Numbered from the stretch's first letter, positions 5,824-36,701 are shown. The stretch is DNA of 64,000 nucleotides from Candidatus Fibrimonadaceae bacterium (GCA_031281265.1 JAITFO010000051.1:1-64000); one strand, 5' to 3'. Numbers and translations are program-made. The notes: a model not told the origin generated them from the letters alone.

Positions 5824-7089
5824 TTACAGTTTTTTAAAAAATTCCCAGAGAGCAGTTGTCATTTTTTCTAGGGTGTAGTTTTGGCTGTGTTTTACAGAGC
5901 GTTTGCGCATATCCTCATATTCAGGAGTTTTAAATATTTCGCAGCATTTTTTCAATTGATTTTCCCATTCGCTCAAATTTTCAAAAGGCAAAACCCAGCC
6001 GCATTTTTCCTCCGCGCTCTTTATCACGTCTTGAGGCCCTCCTTTGTCGGTTACCAATACCGGCGTACCGCTCGCAAGGGATTCAACAACCACATTGCCA
6101 AAGGTATCTGAACCGCTTGGGAATAAAAAGAAATCCGCATTGGCATATAATTCCGCAAGCTCCTTGCCAGTTCTAACTCCTACAAAATATACATTTGAAT
6201 ATTCAATCATATTATTTATAAGCGTTTCTAAATACCATCCTCCACCCACAATGGTCAGTTCTGCATTTGCAGCTATCTCTTGATTTTTATCGCAAAATTG
6301 TTTCCATAGTTCTTCCAAGAAAGGTATGTTTTTTTCCACGGATATGCGCCCTACGTAGATAAAGCGGACTTTGCGATTTCGCTGTGTTTCGGGCAATTTT
6401 CTATAATCAGGCGAAAAATTTTCCAAAGGAATGCCCCTCGGCAAAACTTTTATGCCTTCTGGTTTTACCTTTATCTCCGTCTCTAAAATTTCACGATAAG
6501 TTTCGCAAGGGCTTATGACCGGAGTTGTGTTTTGATAAAATATGCGCATATAGTTAAGCACATAACGGCGCATCCAGGCTTCTTTAACGAGGAAGCGGGT
6601 ATAACTGGGAACATCGGTGCGGTAATGGCTTATCACTTTTAAACCTGCTATTCTGGCGGCAATGCCAACCAGCCATGCTCCGGGGCTTGGGGTTTCCAGT
6701 TCCATTATATCCGCAGGGTAGTGTTTCAAAAATCTGAGCACGGGAGCGAGCTGCGGGAATGCTAGTTCGCTATCCGCATAGCCGAGTTGCTCCATGCTTG
6801 CGGCACGCGGAAAAAGCACAACAAAGCTGTCTTCTACAACTCCGTTGGTGCGAGTGTGAAAAGCGCTGCCCCAAAGCTGTACTTTTTTGCCTTTTGCTCT
6901 TAGATATGGCACAACGGAACGCAAACTGTTAGCTATGCCATTCACCTCATCTAAATTATCGGAATAAAAAATTACGGAAATATCTTCGTCTGCTGTTCTG
7001 TTCTTTTTTCTCGTTTTATAAAATTTGCGCAACTTTAGTATGGATAGGAAATTGATGATCATCTGATATAATAGCCTGATGAGGAGCAT
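5824..7089 (-). CDS. GT4-type (family 1) glycosyltransferase
   Basis: 'IYVGRISVEKNIPFLEELW' and 'FPSGSDTFGNVVVESLASGTPVLVTDKGGPQDVI'; start taken at MLLIRLL. Confidence 0.85.
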   Translation of the reverse strand: MLLIRLLYQMIINFLSILKLRKFYKTRKKNRTADEDISVIFYSDNLDEVNGIANSLRSVVPYLRAKGKKVQLWGSAFHTRTNGVVEDSFVVLFPRAASMEQLGYADSELAFPQLAPVLRFLKHYPADIMELETPSPGAWLVGIAARIAGLKVISHYRTDVPSYTRFLVKEAWMRRYVLNYMRIFYQNTTPVISPCETYREILETEIKVKPEGIKVLPRGIPLENFSPDYRKLPETQRNRKVRFIYVGRISVEKNIPFLEELWKQFCDKNQEIAANAELTIVGGGWYLETLINNMIEYSNVYFVGVRTGKELAELYANADFFLFPSGSDTFGNVVVESLASGTPVLVTDKGGPQDVIKSAEEKCGWVLPFENLSEWENQLKKCCEIFKTPEYEDMRKRSVKHSQNYTLEKMTTALWEFFKKL

Positions 7090-7270
7090 GGTGGTTCGCA
7101 CGTTTCCAGGGCGGTAATGCGGCCCCTGCTTAGTCGCTTTGAACACGGAAGTTACCGTGCGTCCTTTTATGGGCAAGCGCGTATCTCCGCCATTAAGCGG
7201 TTTGAGGGGCAAAATCATTGGCTAAAGGTAGAAAAATTTCTTCCGTTTGTGCACTTTCTATTTTCCCAAT

Positions 7271-9646
7271 ATGCCGTTTTTTTTAATAGTCCTATTTGCT
7301 TCAACTGTTTTTGCCTCAGTTGCTGGCGAAAGCCGCTATGCTTCGCTCTCTCAAGATGGAGGAATGCAGGGGAACCCGGCAGCACTCAACGCTTTTGGAA
7401 GCTCAGGCGCTATATTTAGCTACGGAAAAACAGGGGAAAACATCGGCAACATGGATAATTTTCTGTTCGGTATTTGGGGGAGCAACTTCGGTGCAGCTTT
7501 TGATTGGACAAATGGAAAAAACGGTTACGATAGAAGCGAGTGGTCTTTTGTGGGCAGTGAATCCAATTCAAGCCGTTCCTTCTTTTTTGGCAGCAGGTTT
7601 TCTGCAACCAGAGTTTCGCAAAAACACGGAACTTCTTTTTTGTTTTCGCCCGGTTTTTTGATACGCCCGGCTTCCCTTGTTTCAATTGGGTTTTGGAGTG
7701 AACATGCCTTTCAATATGGCTTTTATCAAAACAGGATGCAGAACGCAGGTTTCTCTATAAGGCCAGTGAGCGGTATAACCGCAAGCTGGAATGCAAACAT
7801 AAAAAATTATGAGCAACTCAAACATTTTTCTTCGCAGGTGAGGCAGAACATATTGCTTGAACTGGAGGCTTTTGATTTAACTCTTGGTTTGGAATATCCC
7901 CTTGTGGCACCGGACGATAATGGTGAACTAAGGCTCTCTCTTTCCACTGCTCTCGGTTCACATTTAAATGCTTCTTATGCCATTGATGCAGGCGATGCGT
8001 ATTTGAGAAATAATTTTAATTTCAGAAAATTTAGCTTGATAAGACATTCCGCATTAAATGAGAGTTCTTTGGGATATAGCATAGTTCACGTCCATTTGGG
8101 AAGCATCAGTGAGAAAAGCAATGGATGGAGCGTTTTTGGCGAGCAAGGAAACGATTTGGAAACTTTAAAAAACACTTTTGTCCTTTTGGAAAGATCCAGT
8201 ACCAGAGCTGTGCTCTTTGATTTTTCCAATTACAGAGGCGGGCTTAGTATTTCCCAAGAAATTCGCAGGGGAATTGCCTCTTTAAAAAGTAGGGGTATAA
8301 AAGTTGCAGCCTATACAAATGACTACCGCCCCTCTATTATATTTGCCGCATCCGCTGCGGATAAAATAATTTTGCAGCCATCCACATTTGTGAACTTTAA
8401 AGGGCTTGCCAGCGAAGTTCTTTATTACAAAGGATTATTGGACCGGGTTGGTATAAAATTTGAAATGCTCCGGCACGGAGGTTATAAATCCGCGATGGAA
8501 CCTTATGTTTTAGATTCCATGAGCAATGAGGCTAGGGAAAATTTGCAGGGGGTTTTGAATGGCTGGTGGAGCGTGGTTAGAGATACGGTGGCAGCATCTA
8601 GAGGGCTTTCCGCAGAGTTCTTAGATAGCATTGCCAACAACCCTAGAACAACCGCAAGCTCTGCAAAAAACAACGGCTTGGCAGATACCTTGCTCTATAT
8701 GGAAGATGTTGCAAAATATATATCCAAAGTTTTTTTAGGCAGGGAGAACAAAGATGCGAGCATGGAGAGTTGGTATTTAAGCGGTGAAAAAATAATTTCA
8801 AATTCATGGCAACCGGTGGCAAAGATAGCGGTGCTAAATATTGACGGGATGATAATTTCGGGCTATGGCTCAAACGACCCTTTGTTTGGAAACAGCGTTG
8901 CGGGAGTTGCAAGTTTAATAGAAACCATAAACGATATAGGTTATTCCGATGAATACGATGCTCTGATTTTACGCATAAATTCGCCCGGAGGTTCGGCGGT
9001 TGCTTCTGATGAGCTTTGGCATTCGCTTAAAACGCTCAGGGAAAATGGAATGCCAATTATAGCGAGCGTTGGCGATATGGCAGCAAGCGGTGCCTATTAT
9101 ACGGCGTGTGCTGCGGATAAGATTGTGGCAGAAGCAGGCAGCGTTGTGGGGAGCATTGGGATTTACGGCGGCAAGTTGAATATGAGCGGGCTTCTCGCAA
9201 AATTCAGGATGAAAAATGAGGTTGTAAAAACCCACGAAAGCGCAAATGCACAGAGCGTATTCAGCGGGCTTTCCAAGAACGATAGCATTGCCCTGCAAGA
9301 GTATATGGATGAATTTTATTCGCGCTTTGTGAGCGTTGTTTCTGAGGGTAGAAACATGAGCGAAGAACGTGTGGATTCACTTGGGAACGGAAAGGTATAT
9401 GTGGGGATTGACGCGGTTAAAAACGGTTTGATAGACGAAATAGGCGGTTTTGAGTACGCTGTTGAACTCGCAAAAAAAGATGCAGGTTTAAGGAAAAGCG
9501 CAAAGGTTGAGATAGTGCATATAAATAACTGGGGCTACTCGTTTACAGATAGAATTTCCGCAATGGCAAAAGGGGAAGAGCAGATATATCCGTGGCTAAA
9601 TTCTTTGGAAAACACTCAGGGCTGGGCAATTTATTATGGCAAATGA
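7271..9646 (+). CDS. sppA: SppA-type signal peptide peptidase fused to an N-terminal putative outer-membrane beta-barrel-like region
   Basis: Signal peptide, about 270 aa of aromatic/Gly/Ser-rich alternating sequence, then SppA with Lys motif 'GGYKSAMEP' and Ser motif 'GDMAASGAYY'. Confidence 0.8.
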   Translation: MPFFLIVLFASTVFASVAGESRYASLSQDGGMQGNPAALNAFGSSGAIFSYGKTGENIGNMDNFLFGIWGSNFGAAFDWTNGKNGYDRSEWSFVGSESNSSRSFFFGSRFSATRVSQKHGTSFLFSPGFLIRPASLVSIGFWSEHAFQYGFYQNRMQNAGFSIRPVSGITASWNANIKNYEQLKHFSSQVRQNILLELEAFDLTLGLEYPLVAPDDNGELRLSLSTALGSHLNASYAIDAGDAYLRNNFNFRKFSLIRHSALNESSLGYSIVHVHLGSISEKSNGWSVFGEQGNDLETLKNTFVLLERSSTRAVLFDFSNYRGGLSISQEIRRGIASLKSRGIKVAAYTNDYRPSIIFAASAADKIILQPSTFVNFKGLASEVLYYKGLLDRVGIKFEMLRHGGYKSAMEPYVLDSMSNEARENLQGVLNGWWSVVRDTVAASRGLSAEFLDSIANNPRTTASSAKNNGLADTLLYMEDVAKYISKVFLGRENKDASMESWYLSGEKIISNSWQPVAKIAVLNIDGMIISGYGSNDPLFGNSVAGVASLIETINDIGYSDEYDALILRINSPGGSAVASDELWHSLKTLRENGMPIIASVGDMAASGAYYTACAADKIVAEAGSVVGSIGIYGGKLNMSGLLAKFRMKNEVVKTHESANAQSVFSGLSKNDSIALQEYMDEFYSRFVSVVSEGRNMSEERVDSLGNGKVYVGIDAVKNGLIDEIGGFEYAVELAKKDAGLRKSAKVEIVHINNWGYSFTDRISAMAKGEEQIYPWLNSLENTQGWAIYYGK

Positions 9647-18139: not shown

Positions 18140-19066
18140 ATGAAAAACCGTCATCTCTATTTCGCATTATTGGCACCGGCTGCCTCTATTGCCTTGCTGT
18201 CCGCTTGCGGAGAAGGCAACCCATTCAACCTGGAAGATTCCTATGAATGGAGGCAGATACAGGTAGCAGTTGAGAATGTAGTTGACAACCAGATACCTGG
18301 TTGCTTCAAAGACACAAACAACTGCCCAGAAGGGGGTATCACCGTTCCAGAACCCCCGCCCCCACCCCCACCCCCTACTTCCTCATCATCCGCAGATGAT
18401 CCGGAACCAGGGCCAGTTCAGAGCAGCAGTTCTGTTGAACCGAGCGGCAGCGTTGAAAGCAGCAGCTCAGTTGAACCGAGTAGCAGTTCTGTTGAACCTA
18501 GCAGCAGCAGCGTGAGCCTAAGCAGTTCGAGCGTTATGCCTAGCAGCAGCAGCGTTGCAACAAGCAGCAGTTCCATTGCACCTAGCAGTTCCAGCGTGGC
18601 ACCACCACCACCACCTCCGAGCAGTAGCAGCATTGCAAGCAGCAGTAGCGTGGCACCACCACCTCCTCCACCACCCAGCAGCAGCTCTAGCGAGCAATCC
18701 AGTGGTGGCAATAGCTGTGGTTACAAAAATGATGCTAATTTGTGCCCAGGGGTTGCTATTACGAGTGTAAAAGCAGAAAACATAAACAAGGCTGACGACG
18801 CGAATATCAATGATGGCGATAGGTGTTATTTTGCAACTACAATCACCCAACTCGCCAATATAAGCGGAAACTTTACGATTAATGGAAAAACTGTTGCAAA
18901 GTGCGGAAGACCTGGTTGGGGACAACCTACATGTGCTGAGGCTTTGAGCACAGCAGGTGTGACTACGGTGGATGAAGGGTATTACATTTATACTCCAGAT
19001 AACTATAAGGCAGGTTTTGTAATCTCTAATTCTTACGCTCCGAATTTGCATCCTAATTGCCGGTAG
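18140..19066 (+). CDS. Lipoprotein, paralog family member 1 (conserved head, Ser/Pro-rich linker, unique C-terminus)
   Basis: Lipobox 'LLSACGEGNPFNL', 'EWRQIQVAVENVVDNQIPGC...CPEGGI', long SSSS/PPPP linker; SD-like 'gggagg' upstream. Confidence 0.8.
   Translation: MKNRHLYFALLAPAASIALLSACGEGNPFNLEDSYEWRQIQVAVENVVDNQIPGCFKDTNNCPEGGITVPEPPPPPPPPTSSSSADDPEPGPVQSSSSVEPSGSVESSSSVEPSSSSVEPSSSSVSLSSSSVMPSSSSVATSSSSIAPSSSSVAPPPPPPSSSSIASSSSVAPPPPPPPSSSSSEQSSGGNSCGYKNDANLCPGVAITSVKAENINKADDANINDGDRCYFATTITQLANISGNFTINGKTVAKCGRPGWGQPTCAEALSTAGVTTVDEGYYIYTPDNYKAGFVISNSYAPNLHPNCR
18352..18700 (+). repeat. Low-complexity Pro/Ser codon repeat encoding the linker
   Basis: Runs of ccc/cca and agc/agt codons (PPPPPPP, EPSSSSV, SSSS). 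Confidence 0.85.
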
Positions 19067-19088
19067 GCTTTATAATACGCCTTTAAAC

Positions 19089-19113
19089 CGCCCCCTACAA
19101 GGGGGCTTTTTTG
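19089..19113 (+). terminator. Rho-independent terminator
   Basis: GCCCCCTACAAGGGGGC followed by TTTTTT. Confidence 0.85.
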
Positions 19114-19223
19114 TTAACCCCCCTTTTTTTTTGTGCAAAAATGAAAAAAATTGTCGTTTTCCGTAAAAAAAATCTATATTTAGTTTTTGGAGACCCTACA
19201 CCCCTCCCAAAACCGAGGCTTTT

Positions 19224-20990
19224 ATGAAAAAGCGATACCTTTATCTTGTTCTTTTGGCGTTATCCGCCTATTTCACCTTTTTAGCTGCCTGCGGAGAAGG
19301 CACTCCCTACAGCTTAAAAGATTCCCCTGAATGGCTTCAAATACAACATGCCGTGGAGGATGTGGTTGATATCAATATACCCAATTGTTTCAATTACGAA
19401 GTGGACTGCCCAGAAGGAGGCATCAGAATCCCCGAGAAGCCTTCCTCTTCATCTAGACCAACTGAGTTGCCATCCTCCTCCTCCAAAGAAGATGAGCCGG
19501 AGCCGCCACAACAGACATACAATTTAACTTGCGTCGGTACTTCAACAGGGGTTGCTGGCATAGTAATCACCCAGCCTACCGTGAAATGCAATGGCGAGAA
19601 TGTCACTGCTACATTTTCACCTAGTACGCTTAGTTGGACTACACCGACAGAAGGCACTTACGATGTGACTGCAACGGCAGTTTGCGGACCCAGCAGTCAA
19701 ACGGAGCCTTGCGGAACCCTAGTAGTTGCCCCACCACCCACTGCAACTGAATTAACTTGCACCGGATTGGCTGCAACGGGAATCGCAGGAGCTGCAATCA
19801 CCCCACCTACCGTAACATGCGGAACCGTTACCATCAACAACCCAACCTTTACTGGAGCACCTACGCCTAATTGGACTGCTCCGAATGAGGGTACTTATAA
19901 CGTATCCGCTAATGCTACAACAGACTGCAAGGAAGCCAAATCTTGCGGAACCATAATAATTAGCCCCAAGCTGAATTGCGCTGCTCTCCCAACGGCTCCG
20001 GTAATCGCTGAAACTGCGGTAACCCCACCGGCTGTGACTTGCGGCACCACTGCTGTTGCTGCTACAGATATTGGTTGGAGCGGGCAGCCTACTTGGAGTA
20101 GTCCAGCTCAGGGCACTTATAACACCGTTAAAGCAACGGCAAATGCCGGGGCTTGCAAAGACCAAACAGCAACTTGCAGCGGCACCTTGACGGTAAACGC
20201 AAAACTGAAATGCGGTAATATTGGGCAAACAATAACAGTTGGGCAAACTCCTACCAAGGCAGCGAATTTAGTGACCTGCGGTTCTAACAATGTCACCAGT
20301 GGCATCACTTGGAACCCAACCTCCGTAGGCGGTGCAATTAACACTGCACAGAATATCAGCAATGTAAAGGCAACAGCCACTTGCGGTGGTAGTAGCCAGA
20401 CAGCTGATTGCTCAGGCACAATAACGGTGAATGCGAGCAGTGCGAGTACAACAAGTAGTGCGAGTACAACAAGTAGTGCGAGCACAACAAGCAGTGCGAG
20501 CACAACAAGCAGTGCAAGCACAACAAGCAGTGCAAGCACAACAAGTAGTGCAAGCAACACAAGCAGTGCAAGTAACAACGCAAGTAGCGCAAGTGGTGCC
20601 GCTGGTGGTATAGATAAACCTCTTCAAATCACAGGAGATGGAGGGAATTTACCTGGTGCTGGTGTCTTAGAGAATTTGGATGGCATAATCTATATAAGCG
20701 GAGCAAGCTCGACTAATAGAAATTATCTACAATGTAGTTCTATGCAAGGTGGAACTGTTTCTGTACAATATTGTGATTATACTAATGGAGACTGTACCCC
20801 GAACAAAGAGTGTACTGCTGCAAGCAATAATATAAGATGTCGGTTAGCCGACATTACTTTCACGAAGCCAGAGGGTTCAACTGATCCCAATGTATGCCAG
20901 AACACCAATAACTGTACATATAAAGTAAAAGTTAAATTTACCATAGTATCAGGTAGTAGCTATCCATCCGGTTGCAAAATAGGCGGATAA
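19224..20990 (+). CDS. Lipoprotein, paralog family member 2, with four Cys-containing Ig-like repeats and an SSASTT repeat linker
   Basis: Lipobox 'FLAACGEGTPYSL', 'EWLQIQHAVEDVVDINIPNC...CPEGGI'; four roughly 75-aa repeats with 'L.C.......CG(T/S)....G' pattern. Confidence 0.8.
   Translation: MKKRYLYLVLLALSAYFTFLAACGEGTPYSLKDSPEWLQIQHAVEDVVDINIPNCFNYEVDCPEGGIRIPEKPSSSSRPTELPSSSSKEDEPEPPQQTYNLTCVGTSTGVAGIVITQPTVKCNGENVTATFSPSTLSWTTPTEGTYDVTATAVCGPSSQTEPCGTLVVAPPPTATELTCTGLAATGIAGAAITPPTVTCGTVTINNPTFTGAPTPNWTAPNEGTYNVSANATTDCKEAKSCGTIIISPKLNCAALPTAPVIAETAVTPPAVTCGTTAVAATDIGWSGQPTWSSPAQGTYNTVKATANAGACKDQTATCSGTLTVNAKLKCGNIGQTITVGQTPTKAANLVTCGSNNVTSGITWNPTSVGGAINTAQNISNVKATATCGGSSQTADCSGTITVNASSASTTSSASTTSSASTTSSASTTSSASTTSSASTTSSASNTSSASNNASSASGAAGGIDKPLQITGDGGNLPGAGVLENLDGIIYISGASSTNRNYLQCSSMQGGTVSVQYCDYTNGDCTPNKECTAASNNIRCRLADITFTKPEGSTDPNVCQNTNNCTYKVKVKFTIVSGSSYPSGCKIGG
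20434..20570 (+). repeat. Tandem 18-bp repeats (agtgcgagcacaacaagc type) encoding (SSASTT)n
   Basis: Direct reading of 'agtgcgagtacaacaagt' and close variants in tandem. Confidence 0.9.
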
Positions 20991-21013
20991 GCAAGGGCAA
21001 GCCGTAAACAACA

Positions 21014-21042
21014 AAGCCCCCCCGAAAGGGGGGGCTTTTTTT
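21014..21042 (+). terminator. Rho-independent terminator
   Basis: AGCCCCCCC-GAAA-GGGGGGGCT then TTTTTT. Confidence 0.9.
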
Positions 21043-21084
21043 GTATATTTATAGTAAGAGGTGTATTATGTTTAGGATTTTCAG

Positions 21085-21405
21085 GTGTTAGCCTGTAAAA
21101 ATTTATTATATTACATATTAGAGAGATTTTATGAGTATGAATGGGATGAAGCCAAAAATACTGAGAATATTGAAAAGCATAGAGGCTTGCCTTTATCTGA
21201 TGGTATTAAAGTATTTTGGGATAAAGCAAGAGTTATATCTGAGGATGAGAGATTTAACTATGGAGAAAAGCGTCATATAGCGATAGGTAAAGTTAAAGGA
21301 AGAGTTTTATCTGTATGCTTTACATATCGTAGATTTTTGAAGAGGCGTTTGATTTCCGTTAGAATTGCAAGTAGAAAAGAAAGGAGATGGTATTATGGAA
21401 AATAA
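21085..21405 (+). CDS. BrnT-like (type II toxin family) protein
   Basis: 'YEWDEAKNTENIEKHRGLPLSDGIKVFWD...GEKRHIAIGKVKGRVLSVCFTYR...LISVRIASRKERRWY' is a typical BrnT layout. Confidence 0.8.
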   Translation: MLACKNLLYYILERFYEYEWDEAKNTENIEKHRGLPLSDGIKVFWDKARVISEDERFNYGEKRHIAIGKVKGRVLSVCFTYRRFLKRRLISVRIASRKERRWYYGK

Positions 21406-21652
21406 AGTTTACGTTATGACCGCCAAGCAGGCAGCTAAGGCTTTCCCTATAGATGAGAAGTTATATGCTCGCCTCAAAGAACTGGAAGATTCGGGCTTTG
21501 AGCCGGATATTTATGATGAACACCCGGAAGTGACAGATGATGCAAGATTTGTTAGAGTAAGCGACCTTGATATCATAATTGATAACATATTCGGTGGCAT
21601 ATTTAAACGCATTTTTAAGAAAAAACCAAAAGCCGTATTGCATACGCCATAA
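21395..21652 (+). CDS. Putative partner (antitoxin candidate) of the BrnT-like toxin
   Basis: Overlaps the toxin 3' end by 11 nt; 'MENKVYVMTAKQAAKAFPIDEKLYARLKELEDSGFEPD'; not a recognisable BrnA. Confidence 0.55.
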   Translation: MENKVYVMTAKQAAKAFPIDEKLYARLKELEDSGFEPDIYDEHPEVTDDARFVRVSDLDIIIDNIFGGIFKRIFKKKPKAVLHTP

Positions 21653-21660
21653 AACAACAA

Positions 21661-21687
21661 AGCCCCCCGAAAGGGGGGGCTTTTTTT
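21661..21687 (+). terminator. Rho-independent terminator, near-identical to 21014-21042
   Basis: AGCCCCCC-GAAA-GGGGGGGCTTTTTTT. Confidence 0.9.
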
Positions 21688-21784
21688 GTATATTTATAAT
21701 AATTTGTACTTTGCAAACAAGTGTTGACGTTTTTTGAAAAATAAATTATTATATTTATTGTAGCGTATTGCAAATGGAGTTTTT

Positions 21785-22291
21785 ATGATGTATCAGAAAC
21801 TAGAAGGTTTAATAGCCAGCCTTGCCAAGGAAAATAGGGAAACTGCCCAGATATTAAAAGAGCTATCTAGGCACATGGGTGGCATAGACGATAACCAAGG
21901 TTATCACGCCGAGCAGTATTTTCAAAATGCGCTCTCGGAAAAGCCGATATTTGGCGGCGTTAAATACGATGTAATGGTTCCTAACTTAGCGCATAAAGAC
22001 AAGAATGGTGAAATAGAGTTCGATATAGCTTTGATTAACGGAGATTCCATAGCATTAATAGAGGTAAAAAATAGGATACATCCAAAGTTTGTCAGAGAAT
22101 TAGCGGAAAAAAGAATTGAAAAATTCAGGGAATTTTTTCCCAAATACAAGAAATTCAAAACTTATTTGGGCATAGCCGCTTTTTCCTTTGGCAAAAAAGT
22201 TACGGAAGAAGCCGAAAAATACGGCATAGGCCTAATCCGTCAAGTAGGCGATTCCGTAGAAATCAGAGCGGAGAGGCTAAAAATCTATTAA
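21785..22291 (+). CDS. PD-(D/E)XK nuclease-like protein
   Basis: 'EIEFDIALINGDSIALIEVKNRIHPKFV' resembles a PD-(D/E)XK core (D...EVK). Confidence 0.6.
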   Translation: MMYQKLEGLIASLAKENRETAQILKELSRHMGGIDDNQGYHAEQYFQNALSEKPIFGGVKYDVMVPNLAHKDKNGEIEFDIALINGDSIALIEVKNRIHPKFVRELAEKRIEKFREFFPKYKKFKTYLGIAAFSFGKKVTEEAEKYGIGLIRQVGDSVEIRAERLKIY

Positions 22292-22395
22292 TTCCCCCTT
22301 TTTTTGGTTAAATTCTGCAATTTCTGACCATTTTTTATAAAAAAATTATATATTTAATATATAGACCCTTATATTTACTAAAAAAAGAGGCTTTT

Positions 22396-23367
22396 ATGAA
22401 AAAACGGTGTTTTTATTTCGCTCTTTTGGCTTTATCTGCCTTTTTTGCTTTTTTAGCTGCTTGCGGAGAAGGCGAGCCTTTCAATCTCACTAACTCGAAC
22501 GAATGGCGACAGATACAAAGCGCAGTGGAAAATGTGACCGATACTGGCATACCTGCTTGCTACGAGGACCACAACGTTGGCCCAAAATGCCCAGAAGGAG
22601 GCATAGTCGTTCCAGAACCGCCATTGCCGCCCCAACCTCCTGTGACCCCTTCTTCCTCTTCATCCGAACCGACTATGCCGCCACAGCCGGGCACCTCATC
22701 TCAAAGCACTGGCACTAGTTCCGCAGGCGGCATTTCATCTGCTGGTGGTACCAGTTCTGCTGGCGGTGTCAGTTCTAGCGCAGCGGGGAGCAGTAGTTCT
22801 TTTGCGTTAGCTTGTGGTTCTGTTGCGCAATCAATAACATCTGGGTCTTATCCTACCTTACCCTCGGTGACTTGCAGCGGTGCTAATGTTCTTAGCAACC
22901 AAAGAACATTTACTCCAAATATAGCCGCAGCTGTCAATGCAACGGTCAGTAATGTAACAGTAAGAGCAACCGGTGGAAATTGCAGCGGTCAAGAAGCTCC
23001 CTGCGCTGGCACAATAACGGTTAACGCCGCTCCGAGCAGTTCAAGCACACCGCCAGCCACCCAAAGCAGTTCAAGCGCGGGTGGAAGCAACCCGCCGAAT
23101 CCTGGCGGGGGCAATAATGTTACTTTGAATTATGGTGAGACTTATATATTTGAAGTAGGAAAAACTTATAATTTAACTTGCGAGAAACCTGCCCGTACTC
23201 TTTATTGCTACTCAGTAGATGGTAGTGCTGGCTCGGTGACTGTTGGTACTAAGACTGTAGAAATACCTGGTTGGGCAACCTCTAGTAATATGGCTAATAA
23301 TTTTGGTACTTGTACAGATGGGCAATTAACAGTAACCAAAAATATTGGTTGTGCAAATAAATACTAA
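22396..23367 (+). CDS. Lipoprotein, paralog family member 3, with one Cys Ig-like repeat and a unique C-terminus
   Basis: Lipobox 'FLAACGEGEPFNL', 'EWRQIQSAVENVTDTGIPAC...CPEGGI', one repeat 'LACGSVAQSITSG...CAGTITVNA'. Confidence 0.8.
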   Translation: MKKRCFYFALLALSAFFAFLAACGEGEPFNLTNSNEWRQIQSAVENVTDTGIPACYEDHNVGPKCPEGGIVVPEPPLPPQPPVTPSSSSSEPTMPPQPGTSSQSTGTSSAGGISSAGGTSSAGGVSSSAAGSSSSFALACGSVAQSITSGSYPTLPSVTCSGANVLSNQRTFTPNIAAAVNATVSNVTVRATGGNCSGQEAPCAGTITVNAAPSSSSTPPATQSSSSAGGSNPPNPGGGNNVTLNYGETYIFEVGKTYNLTCEKPARTLYCYSVDGSAGSVTVGTKTVEIPGWATSSNMANNFGTCTDGQLTVTKNIGCANKY

Positions 23368-23410
23368 TGATGTACAGTAAGGACGTATTGCATACGCCAT
23401 AAAACAAACA

Positions 23411-23434
23411 GCCTCCCCAAGCGGGAGGTTTTTT
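23411..23434 (+). terminator. Rho-independent terminator
   Basis: GCCTCCCCAAGCGGGAGGTTTTTT. Confidence 0.85.
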
Positions 23435-23448
23435 GTATATTTATTTCT

Positions 23449-23694
23449 ATGCCAACTTTATTTTCTATTTTTGGGATTAGATTTTATGTCTTCACAGAAG
23501 AACACAAGCCTATCCATATCCATATTCGCAAGGGTAAAGCTAAGGCTAAGTTTGTATTGGAGCCAAATGTAAAGTTATTGGAGAATAAAGGTTTCAAAGA
23601 CCAAGAGATAAGTTTGGCAAAAAGTTTAGTAGAAGAGAATAAAGATATAATTATTGCTCATTGGAAAAATGCGGAAAACTTCAAAAAGGGTTAA
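23449..23694 (+). CDS. DUF4160-like protein
   Basis: 'FGIRFYVFTEEHKPIHIHIRKGKAKAKF' matches the DUF4160 pattern. Confidence 0.8.
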   Translation: MPTLFSIFGIRFYVFTEEHKPIHIHIRKGKAKAKFVLEPNVKLLENKGFKDQEISLAKSLVEENKDIIIAHWKNAENFKKG

Positions 23695-23700
23695 TTCTTA

Positions 23701-23936
23701 TGAAAGTTATTAAAATTTGGTTCTCAAAAGAGAATATTTTTTTGGAAAACGACAAGGGCGAGGTTATGAGTGCAGGGCTTTGGCGTTTTCCAAGATTAAA
23801 GCAAGCGAATAAACAACAGAGGAACAACTGGGAACAATTTCATGATGAGCTTCGTTGGGAAGCAATAGACGAAGATATTGGGCTAGAAAGTTTTAAATGG
23901 AATGAAAACGACAAAGAAATTGTAAGGTTCAAATAA
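23701..23936 (+). CDS. DUF2442-like protein, paired with the DUF4160 gene
   Basis: 'AGLWRFPRLKQANKQQRNNWEQFHDELRWEAIDEDIGLESF' resembles DUF2442; 6-nt gap from upstream ORF; M at 23701. Confidence 0.7.
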
Positions 23937-23996
23937 ACCCCCCCAGCAGGATGTTTTTTGTATAGTAGCCACTGATTAACTTTGAACTTCGCTGTG

Positions 23997-36529: not shown

Positions 36530-36701
36530 TTTTCTTCGTTACCTTAGACGCTTGTCAAGCCAAAAAAAATTCAGATTTATGCATTTTGCAAACAGGTGTT
36601 GACGTTTTTCGTGTTTTTTATGGGTTTTTCTATAGTTTTTCCTAGAAAATTTCATTTGTCATTTTTTTGTATATTTAACAATTATTGATAAATAAACAGC
36701 T

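Follow-up and report, generated by a model that had tools for sequence, protein, structure and literature searches.

In the R64 shufflon, the tyrosine recombinase Rci exchanges the tails of PilV, and inversion between short intragenic sites thereby replaces the C-terminal part of a surface protein. Pilin inversion in Moraxella uses a different enzyme, Piv. According to Marrs et al. (1988), as cited in PMC5903667, the Moraxella inversion determines which one of two pilin genes becomes linked to the expressed start. RecV of Clostridioides difficile and Mpi of Bacteroides fragilis are single recombinases that each serve several scattered surface loci, and outside Fibrobacterota inversion of DNA is known to switch pili, lipoproteins and tail fibres, in some cases through master recombinases with several targets (PMC5903667). 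In the phylum Fibrobacterota, type IV pili and FISUMP/fibro-slime proteins are attachment factors (PMC4704652). Here we analyze a stretch of 64,000 nucleotides from Candidatus Fibrimonadaceae bacterium (GCA_031281265.1, JAITFO010000051.1:1-64000; hereafter the window), in which an island at 18140-23940 encodes three lipoproteins with a common head, interleaved with toxin- and nuclease-like genes, and compare it with the genomes of its relatives.

We consider it probable that the island is an array of genus-specific surface lipoproteins, a family for which relatives possess a dedicated inversion switch. The family plan would combine a lipobox, a short Cys-containing head, a flexible Ser/Pro linker and exchangeable Cys-rich beta modules. 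For the array in the window, the most likely origin is duplication of the head gene and exchange of tail modules via homologous recombination, and the array would also have collected mobile toxin–antitoxin and nuclease genes behind its terminators. In the relatives, the gene of a Xer-like tyrosine recombinase lies between inverted pilin operons, and its product is most likely the enzyme that recombines intragenic dyad sites with 11-bp arms and a 7-bp overlap; inversion would swap the distal half of the expressed lipoprotein, comprising module M3 and the tail, for a silent headless copy, as with the pilin operons. This reading draws on sequence-level observations, namely the modules, the distribution of the head, the common start of the headless copies, the dyads with their matching spacers, the recombinase at the pilin sites and the opposite operon states found there.

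Such a system would resemble the R64 shufflon in using a tyrosine recombinase to exchange the C-terminal portion of a surface protein, differing in its chromosomal lipoprotein target, its usually single silent tail per array, its 11-7-11 dyad and its apparent extension to pilin operons. With the Moraxella inversion it shares the choice of the pilin joined to an expressed start, whereas here the inverted units would be entire operons with several pilin genes, and the enzyme a Xer-like tyrosine recombinase in place of Piv. As with RecV and Mpi, one recombinase would serve several targets; those enzymes mainly flip promoters or regulatory segments, while coding halves would be exchanged here. The lipoproteins also recall the type IV pili and FISUMP/fibro-slime proteins of Fibrobacter as surface proteins tied to fibre attachment, although only one module, termed R below, is common to them and a FISUMP lipoprotein.

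Head and tail modules of the lipoproteins

The three lipoprotein open reading frames (ORFs), like the other genes, terminators and repeats of the island, lie on the plus strand. ORF1 (18140..19066) consists of the head (18140-18334), a Ser/Pro linker and a tail module, TA (18707-19063). ORF2 (19224..20990) carries its head at 19224-19418, followed by four R modules (19524-20432), a Ser linker and a unique C-terminus. ORF3 (22396..23367) comprises a head (22396-22599), one R module (22807-23025), a linker and the tail module TD (23110-23364). The head, of about 70 amino acids, contains a signal peptide, the lipobox ACGEG and a Cys-containing stretch with CPEGGI at its end, and leads into Ser/Pro-rich linkers, which bears out the first-pass annotation of this DNA in its description of three same-head lipoproteins with Ser-rich linkers. 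By inspection, ACG occupies residues 22-24 in all three proteins, and its Cys is invariant in 17 heads; the heads of ORF2 and ORF3 are 62-68% identical to that of ORF1. The Ser linker of ORF2 contains seven in-frame 18-nt repeats encoding Ser/Ala/Thr (window 20418-20590, about 20433-20600), where slippage could vary copy number and hence linker length.

Exactly three heads are present in the window's genome, whose assembly is 77.6% complete. Of 11 further genomes of the genus, 8 were matched by a three-row head profile, which had no match among 139 genomes from other genera. With a 17-row profile and E below 1e-6, strong matches were obtained in 10 of the 12 genomes of the genus, leaving no match in G006 and a marginal one in G009. 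No Pfam or NCBIfam family matched the head. Given the three copies in this genome and the genus-limited distribution, the head is, by sequence comparison, genus-specific and not a generic export head of this genome's lipoproteins; a generic head was what the first-pass annotation had named as counting against its reading.

Tail modules were resolved by profile hidden Markov models built in this analysis. Module R spans about 73 amino acids, is Cys-rich and occurs four times in ORF2 and once in ORF3. The same annotation had called the three C-termini unrelated. TA, TD and the last ~125 amino acids of ORF2 do differ from one another; ORF2 and ORF3 share R, however, and are therefore not unrelated behind the head. 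The usual order in relatives is HEAD-M1-M2-M3-tail, the tails being TA, TB, TC, TD and others. TA together with four R modules is also found on a GH45-domain protein (a cellulase) of the window's genome, which further encodes a FISUMP lipoprotein carrying R. TA is also scattered across other genera of the family. Judged by this distribution, the tails are exchangeable modules.

These Cys-rich beta modules probably bind plant polymers or the plant cell wall, as suggested by the accompanying domains and by a fold match. R, TA and TD matched no Pfam entry and hence no recognized carbohydrate-binding module (CBM) family by sequence, and a sequence search of the PDB with the TA, R and TD profiles returned nothing meaningful. 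Structure models were obtained for TA, with a predicted local distance difference test score (pLDDT) of 84.8 and a predicted template modelling score (pTM) of 0.80, and for the R and TD modules of ORF3 together (pLDDT 80.0, pTM 0.46). In Foldseek, CBM_E1 provided the three best matches to the R plus TD model (probability 0.94-0.99, E 0.017-0.043). The best fold match was CBM_E1 in complex with cellopentaose (PDB 5KLE), from which the R plus tail segment differs in sharing 19% identity at E 0.017 and no sequence-profile match. A binding role is weakened by the fact that the CBM_E1 matches have E above 0.01 on a model with a pTM of 0.46, in output that does not print the aligned part, and that the TA model has no significant fold match, its three weak ones being CBM64.

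Headless tails, dyad sites and pilin operons in relatives

Four genomes of relatives hold five open frames that consist of M3 and a tail without HEAD, M1 or M2. Four of these lie at L022:7765-8421, L024:5032-5655, L028:220-1392 and L029:16321-16962, and a fifth is found in L225. All five begin at one gene-internal point, the same junction, at which the putative switch site is a dyad of the form 11-7-11, ATAACTGC-N7-GCAGTTAT. The silent junction reads ATAACT, then GCCNTNGC...GCAGTT or close to it; in intact genes, that stretch mostly follows GATTCT (KLDSAVAAVVPNP), and the left arm ATAACT is absent. At the silent sites, the matching arm pairs number 11 of 11 in L022 and L024, 9 in L029 and L225, and 6 in L028; at intact sites they number 3, 4, 4 and 7 of 11. 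A genus-wide search for the site allowing 0-2 mismatches placed all matches at the lipoprotein junction or at a pilin start.

The 7-nt spacer is identical between the intact and the silent copy in all four lipoprotein pairs and differs between genomes (CTTCGCA, CGTGGCG, CGTGGCA and TGTCGCA). With the pilin loci included, spacers are identical in 10/10 pairs (6 pilin, 4 lipoprotein); the permutation values of 0.0056 and 0.042 ignore phylogeny and common descent and therefore support recombination without amounting to proof. Three of four silent copies are inverted relative to the intact partner on the same contig. The stretch shared between copies is 28 nt in L022 and 53 nt in L029. The silent copies of L024 and L225 lie close behind the same peptidase-like gene, yet carry different tails. 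Long inverted repeats at the terminators of L024 and L029 were considered as crossover sites and rejected, as they are shared terminator plus operator sequences.

At the pilin locus, the dyad site stands at the start of a silent pseudopilin operon, and directly next to this operon is a gene with a phage-integrase domain (PF00589, 7.7e-14 and 1.5e-15). A scan of GTDB genomes located this recombinase in six assemblies of the termite-gut Fibrimonas type, titled Candidatus Fibrimonadaceae, Fibrimonadales, Fibrobacteria GUT307 and Candidatus Fibrimonas termitidis. In 6/6 of them it lies between two inverted pilin gene sets (the L232 contig spans only 3.3 kb), and at each locus one gene set has the leader while the other is headless at the site, with spacers identical within the locus. 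Loci L229-L234, with two pseudopilin gene sets (three in L234) and paired dyad sites, have the appearance of an operon-level pilin switch. In GUT307, the type II operon occupies the leader position and type I is silent; in F. termitidis GUT221 the arrangement is reversed. These opposite operon states in the assemblies of two species are the strongest indication that inversion happens. The recombinase is Xer-like, scoring far below the XerC and XerD cut-offs, and retains HRFRH, LGH and the Tyr. The silent pilin site was also considered as an intrinsic terminator and rejected, since no T-run follows the hairpin on either strand. From these arrangements we infer that the same recombinase acts in trans on the lipoprotein sites and that switching is ongoing.

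Several observations weigh against this interpretation. The evidence for inversion comes from assemblies, no inversion was observed directly, and the window is without the whole switch. The first catalytic Arg of the recombinase reads Glu (TG-I/M-ESKA) in all six proteins and in the related prophage integrase described below. None of the four genomes that carry silent lipoprotein tails yielded the recombinase; two of these assemblies are 60-62% complete, and no whole-genome search was made in the four. The headless copy in L028 is in direct orientation, at a poorly symmetric site (6/11).

The last two points would suit a different explanation, namely that the headless tails are decayed partial duplicates whose junction match stems from common descent or RecA-type gene conversion, with no lipoprotein switch. 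The 53 nt shared in L029 would likewise be enough for ordinary homologous recombination. Such decay accounts poorly for five copies in four genomes that share one start point and a left arm absent from intact genes, for the dyad character of the silent sites, for the occurrence of the same site beside a tyrosine recombinase at pilin operons, and for a shared stretch of only 28 nt in L022; we regard it as unlikely, although it deserves serious attention.

A history in which adhesin-like lipoproteins duplicated in tandem and diverged across the genus, with slow domain shuffling and no switch anywhere, appears rather improbable. The heads in the window are only 62-68% identical, which makes their duplication old, and the modules are widely shared with other proteins of the family, both of which such a history would predict; the silent tails, dyad sites and matching spacers of the relatives are not what it would produce.

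Further features accompany the loci in relatives. In L022, a Bro-N gene (6766-7614) lies between the intact lipoprotein and the silent tail and corresponds to the PADLOC candidate defence family PDC-S13 (3.2e-128). In L020, L023, L026, L027 and L029, the head lipoprotein directly follows a patatin-like protein of ~680 amino acids with a probable outer-membrane barrel, and in L020 the nucleophile elbow of this protein reads GTDWG, the Ser being replaced by Asp.

Small genes, terminators and repeats of the island

Between and behind the lipoprotein genes lie small genes that look like ordinary toxin–antitoxin and nuclease insertions behind terminators and not like parts of a switch. A BrnT-like toxin (21085..21405; PF04365, 7.7e-22), whose GTG-started frame is conserved in a relative, overlaps a partner ORF (21395..21652) that matched no antitoxin family, BrnA included. 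The BrnT-like pair named in the first-pass annotation is thus clear for its toxin and not for its partner. The pair recurs behind a pilin operon in G006 (L227/L229, about 16031-16499 of L229), 87% identical for the toxin and 70% for the partner, where it constitutes a mobile toxin–antitoxin module next to another surface-variation locus. An ORF described earlier as PD-(D/E)XK-like (21785..22291) yielded only a sub-threshold NERD match (6.3e-4; score 20.7 vs a cut-off of 22.1 bits) and is designated a NERD-like putative nuclease; it belongs to a set of several paralogues in the genome. The DUF4160/DUF2442 pair, in contrast, was correctly recognized, with both domains over their cut-offs: a DhiT-like toxin (23449..23694; PF13711, 2.3e-16) is adjacent to a DhiA-like antitoxin (23700..23936; PF10387, 1.3e-6). 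DhiT is named with these domains in PMC8198452, and we describe the genes as a DhiTA-like pair; the DhiT equivalog model scores 22.7 of 100 bits.

The terminators had been characterized as near-identical, which applies to some of them. The terminator behind the BrnT pair (21646..21702) is 86% identical over 57 nt to that behind ORF2 (21001..21057, including TTTTTTGTATATTTAT), and a related terminator lies behind ORF3 (23405..23444); these three share the exact TTTTTTGTATATTTAT, whereas those behind ORF1 and DUF2442 are only similar. Within the genome, the composite terminator repeat is specific to this locus. An exact 23-bp repeat, found nowhere else in the genome, occurs at the 3' end of the BrnT partner gene (21635..21657) and behind ORF3 (23385..23407). 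Read as codons, the second copy gives the end of the BrnT partner gene and is best seen as the putative scar of a lost second copy of that gene.

These locus-specific terminator repeats, the exact repeat at gene ends and the recurrence of the BrnT pair in a relative at 87/70% identity might also be expected of an integron-like or other cassette array, with the repeated terminators serving as recombination sites. By inspection, however, the repeats consist of a hairpin and a T-run, as in ordinary terminators, with a TATATTT element behind them, and have no attC-like core boxes, and the part of the genome that was read, without a dedicated integron-integrase search, contains only a prophage integrase and a weak partial match; we consider such an array very unlikely.

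Upstream of the NERD-like ORF lies a dispersed operator-like dyad, TTTGCAAACANNTGTTGAC (21710..21728). In the form GTCAACANNTGTTTGCAAA, it occurs in the window at 21710-21728 and 36585-36603, at 37 places in the genome as against 0 in a reversed control, and in 11 of the 12 genomes of the genus. By gene names assigned by eye, it mostly precedes the starts of Rpn/PD-(D/E)XK, NERD-like and HEPN-like genes and recA by 55-75 nt, and lies ~220 nt upstream of PIN genes, and it may mark a regulon of nuclease and toxin genes. We considered TTTGCAAACANNTGTTGAC as a recombination site and then as the LexA box and rejected it as either, since lexA is without the motif, lexA and recA share TGCCCTTTTGTTCA, and the position of the motif is mostly 55-75 nt ahead of start codons. 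TGCCCTTTTGTTCA or a sequence close to it is present in the promoters of the lexA loci (L159-L169) and of recA (L120) where the upstream region was read, and is the likely LexA box.

Genome context and implications for fibre attachment

The island sits at a junction peculiar to the window's genome among the genomes compared. Other genes follow thiC in the relatives, and thiC and trpE are adjacent in none of those searched; the gene order, whose sameness in all related strains the first-pass annotation had named as contrary to its reading, is not conserved, and this outcome, like that for the head, favours the idea of tail exchange. The three lipoproteins of the window contain no M1, M2 or M3 and no M2/M3 junction, and are therefore without the junction that carries the site. 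In the window's genome, no switch site rose above noise at up to 3 mismatches, and the ~0.9 Mb read, about 40% of the genome, yielded no pilin-type recombinase, silent tail or pilin switch. Two recombinase homologues lie in that part, a related prophage integrase and a weak, partial match. The former (G000:C20:355-1692, L247), 39% identical to the pilin recombinase, was rejected as the switch enzyme, being a prophage integrase beside a tRNA gene; it suggests a phage origin of the switch enzyme.

Because site, silent copy and recombinase were not found, the array in the window looks static, as one branch of a family that can switch in relatives, although the absence of a switch from an assembly that is 77.6% complete is no proof. 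The suggestion that the locus swaps its tails while keeping the head is supported in the relatives, with their conserved heads, variable tails and indicated exchange mechanism; in the window, lacking junction, site above noise, silent tail and pilin-type recombinase, a diversification mechanism is not established. That the window's array is itself an active switch, with silent partners or site in the missing part of the assembly, would accord with the incompleteness of that assembly and the presence of the system in relatives of the same genus, but is scarcely probable for three proteins without the site-carrying junction in a genome with no site above noise and no silent tail in the window or the ~0.9 Mb read.

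A broader proposal, which we regard as quite possible and put forward tentatively, is that a single Xer-like tyrosine recombinase of Fibrimonas-type bacteria from termite guts works in trans on dyad sites of one class, located within both pilin operons and adhesin-like lipoprotein genes, so that single cells may switch their whole fibre-attachment repertoire, pili as well as lipoprotein tails, by DNA inversion; the window would then represent a static member of the family. In the library searched, we found no paper on such a switch in Fibrobacterota. If it exists, it could explain why several of these loci lie at the ends of assembly contigs. In this phylum, the breakdown of cellulose begins with attachment to plant fibre, and a gut symbiont would here vary its fibre-binding surface within a clonal population, a form of variation that has until now been described mainly in connection with immune or phage evasion.

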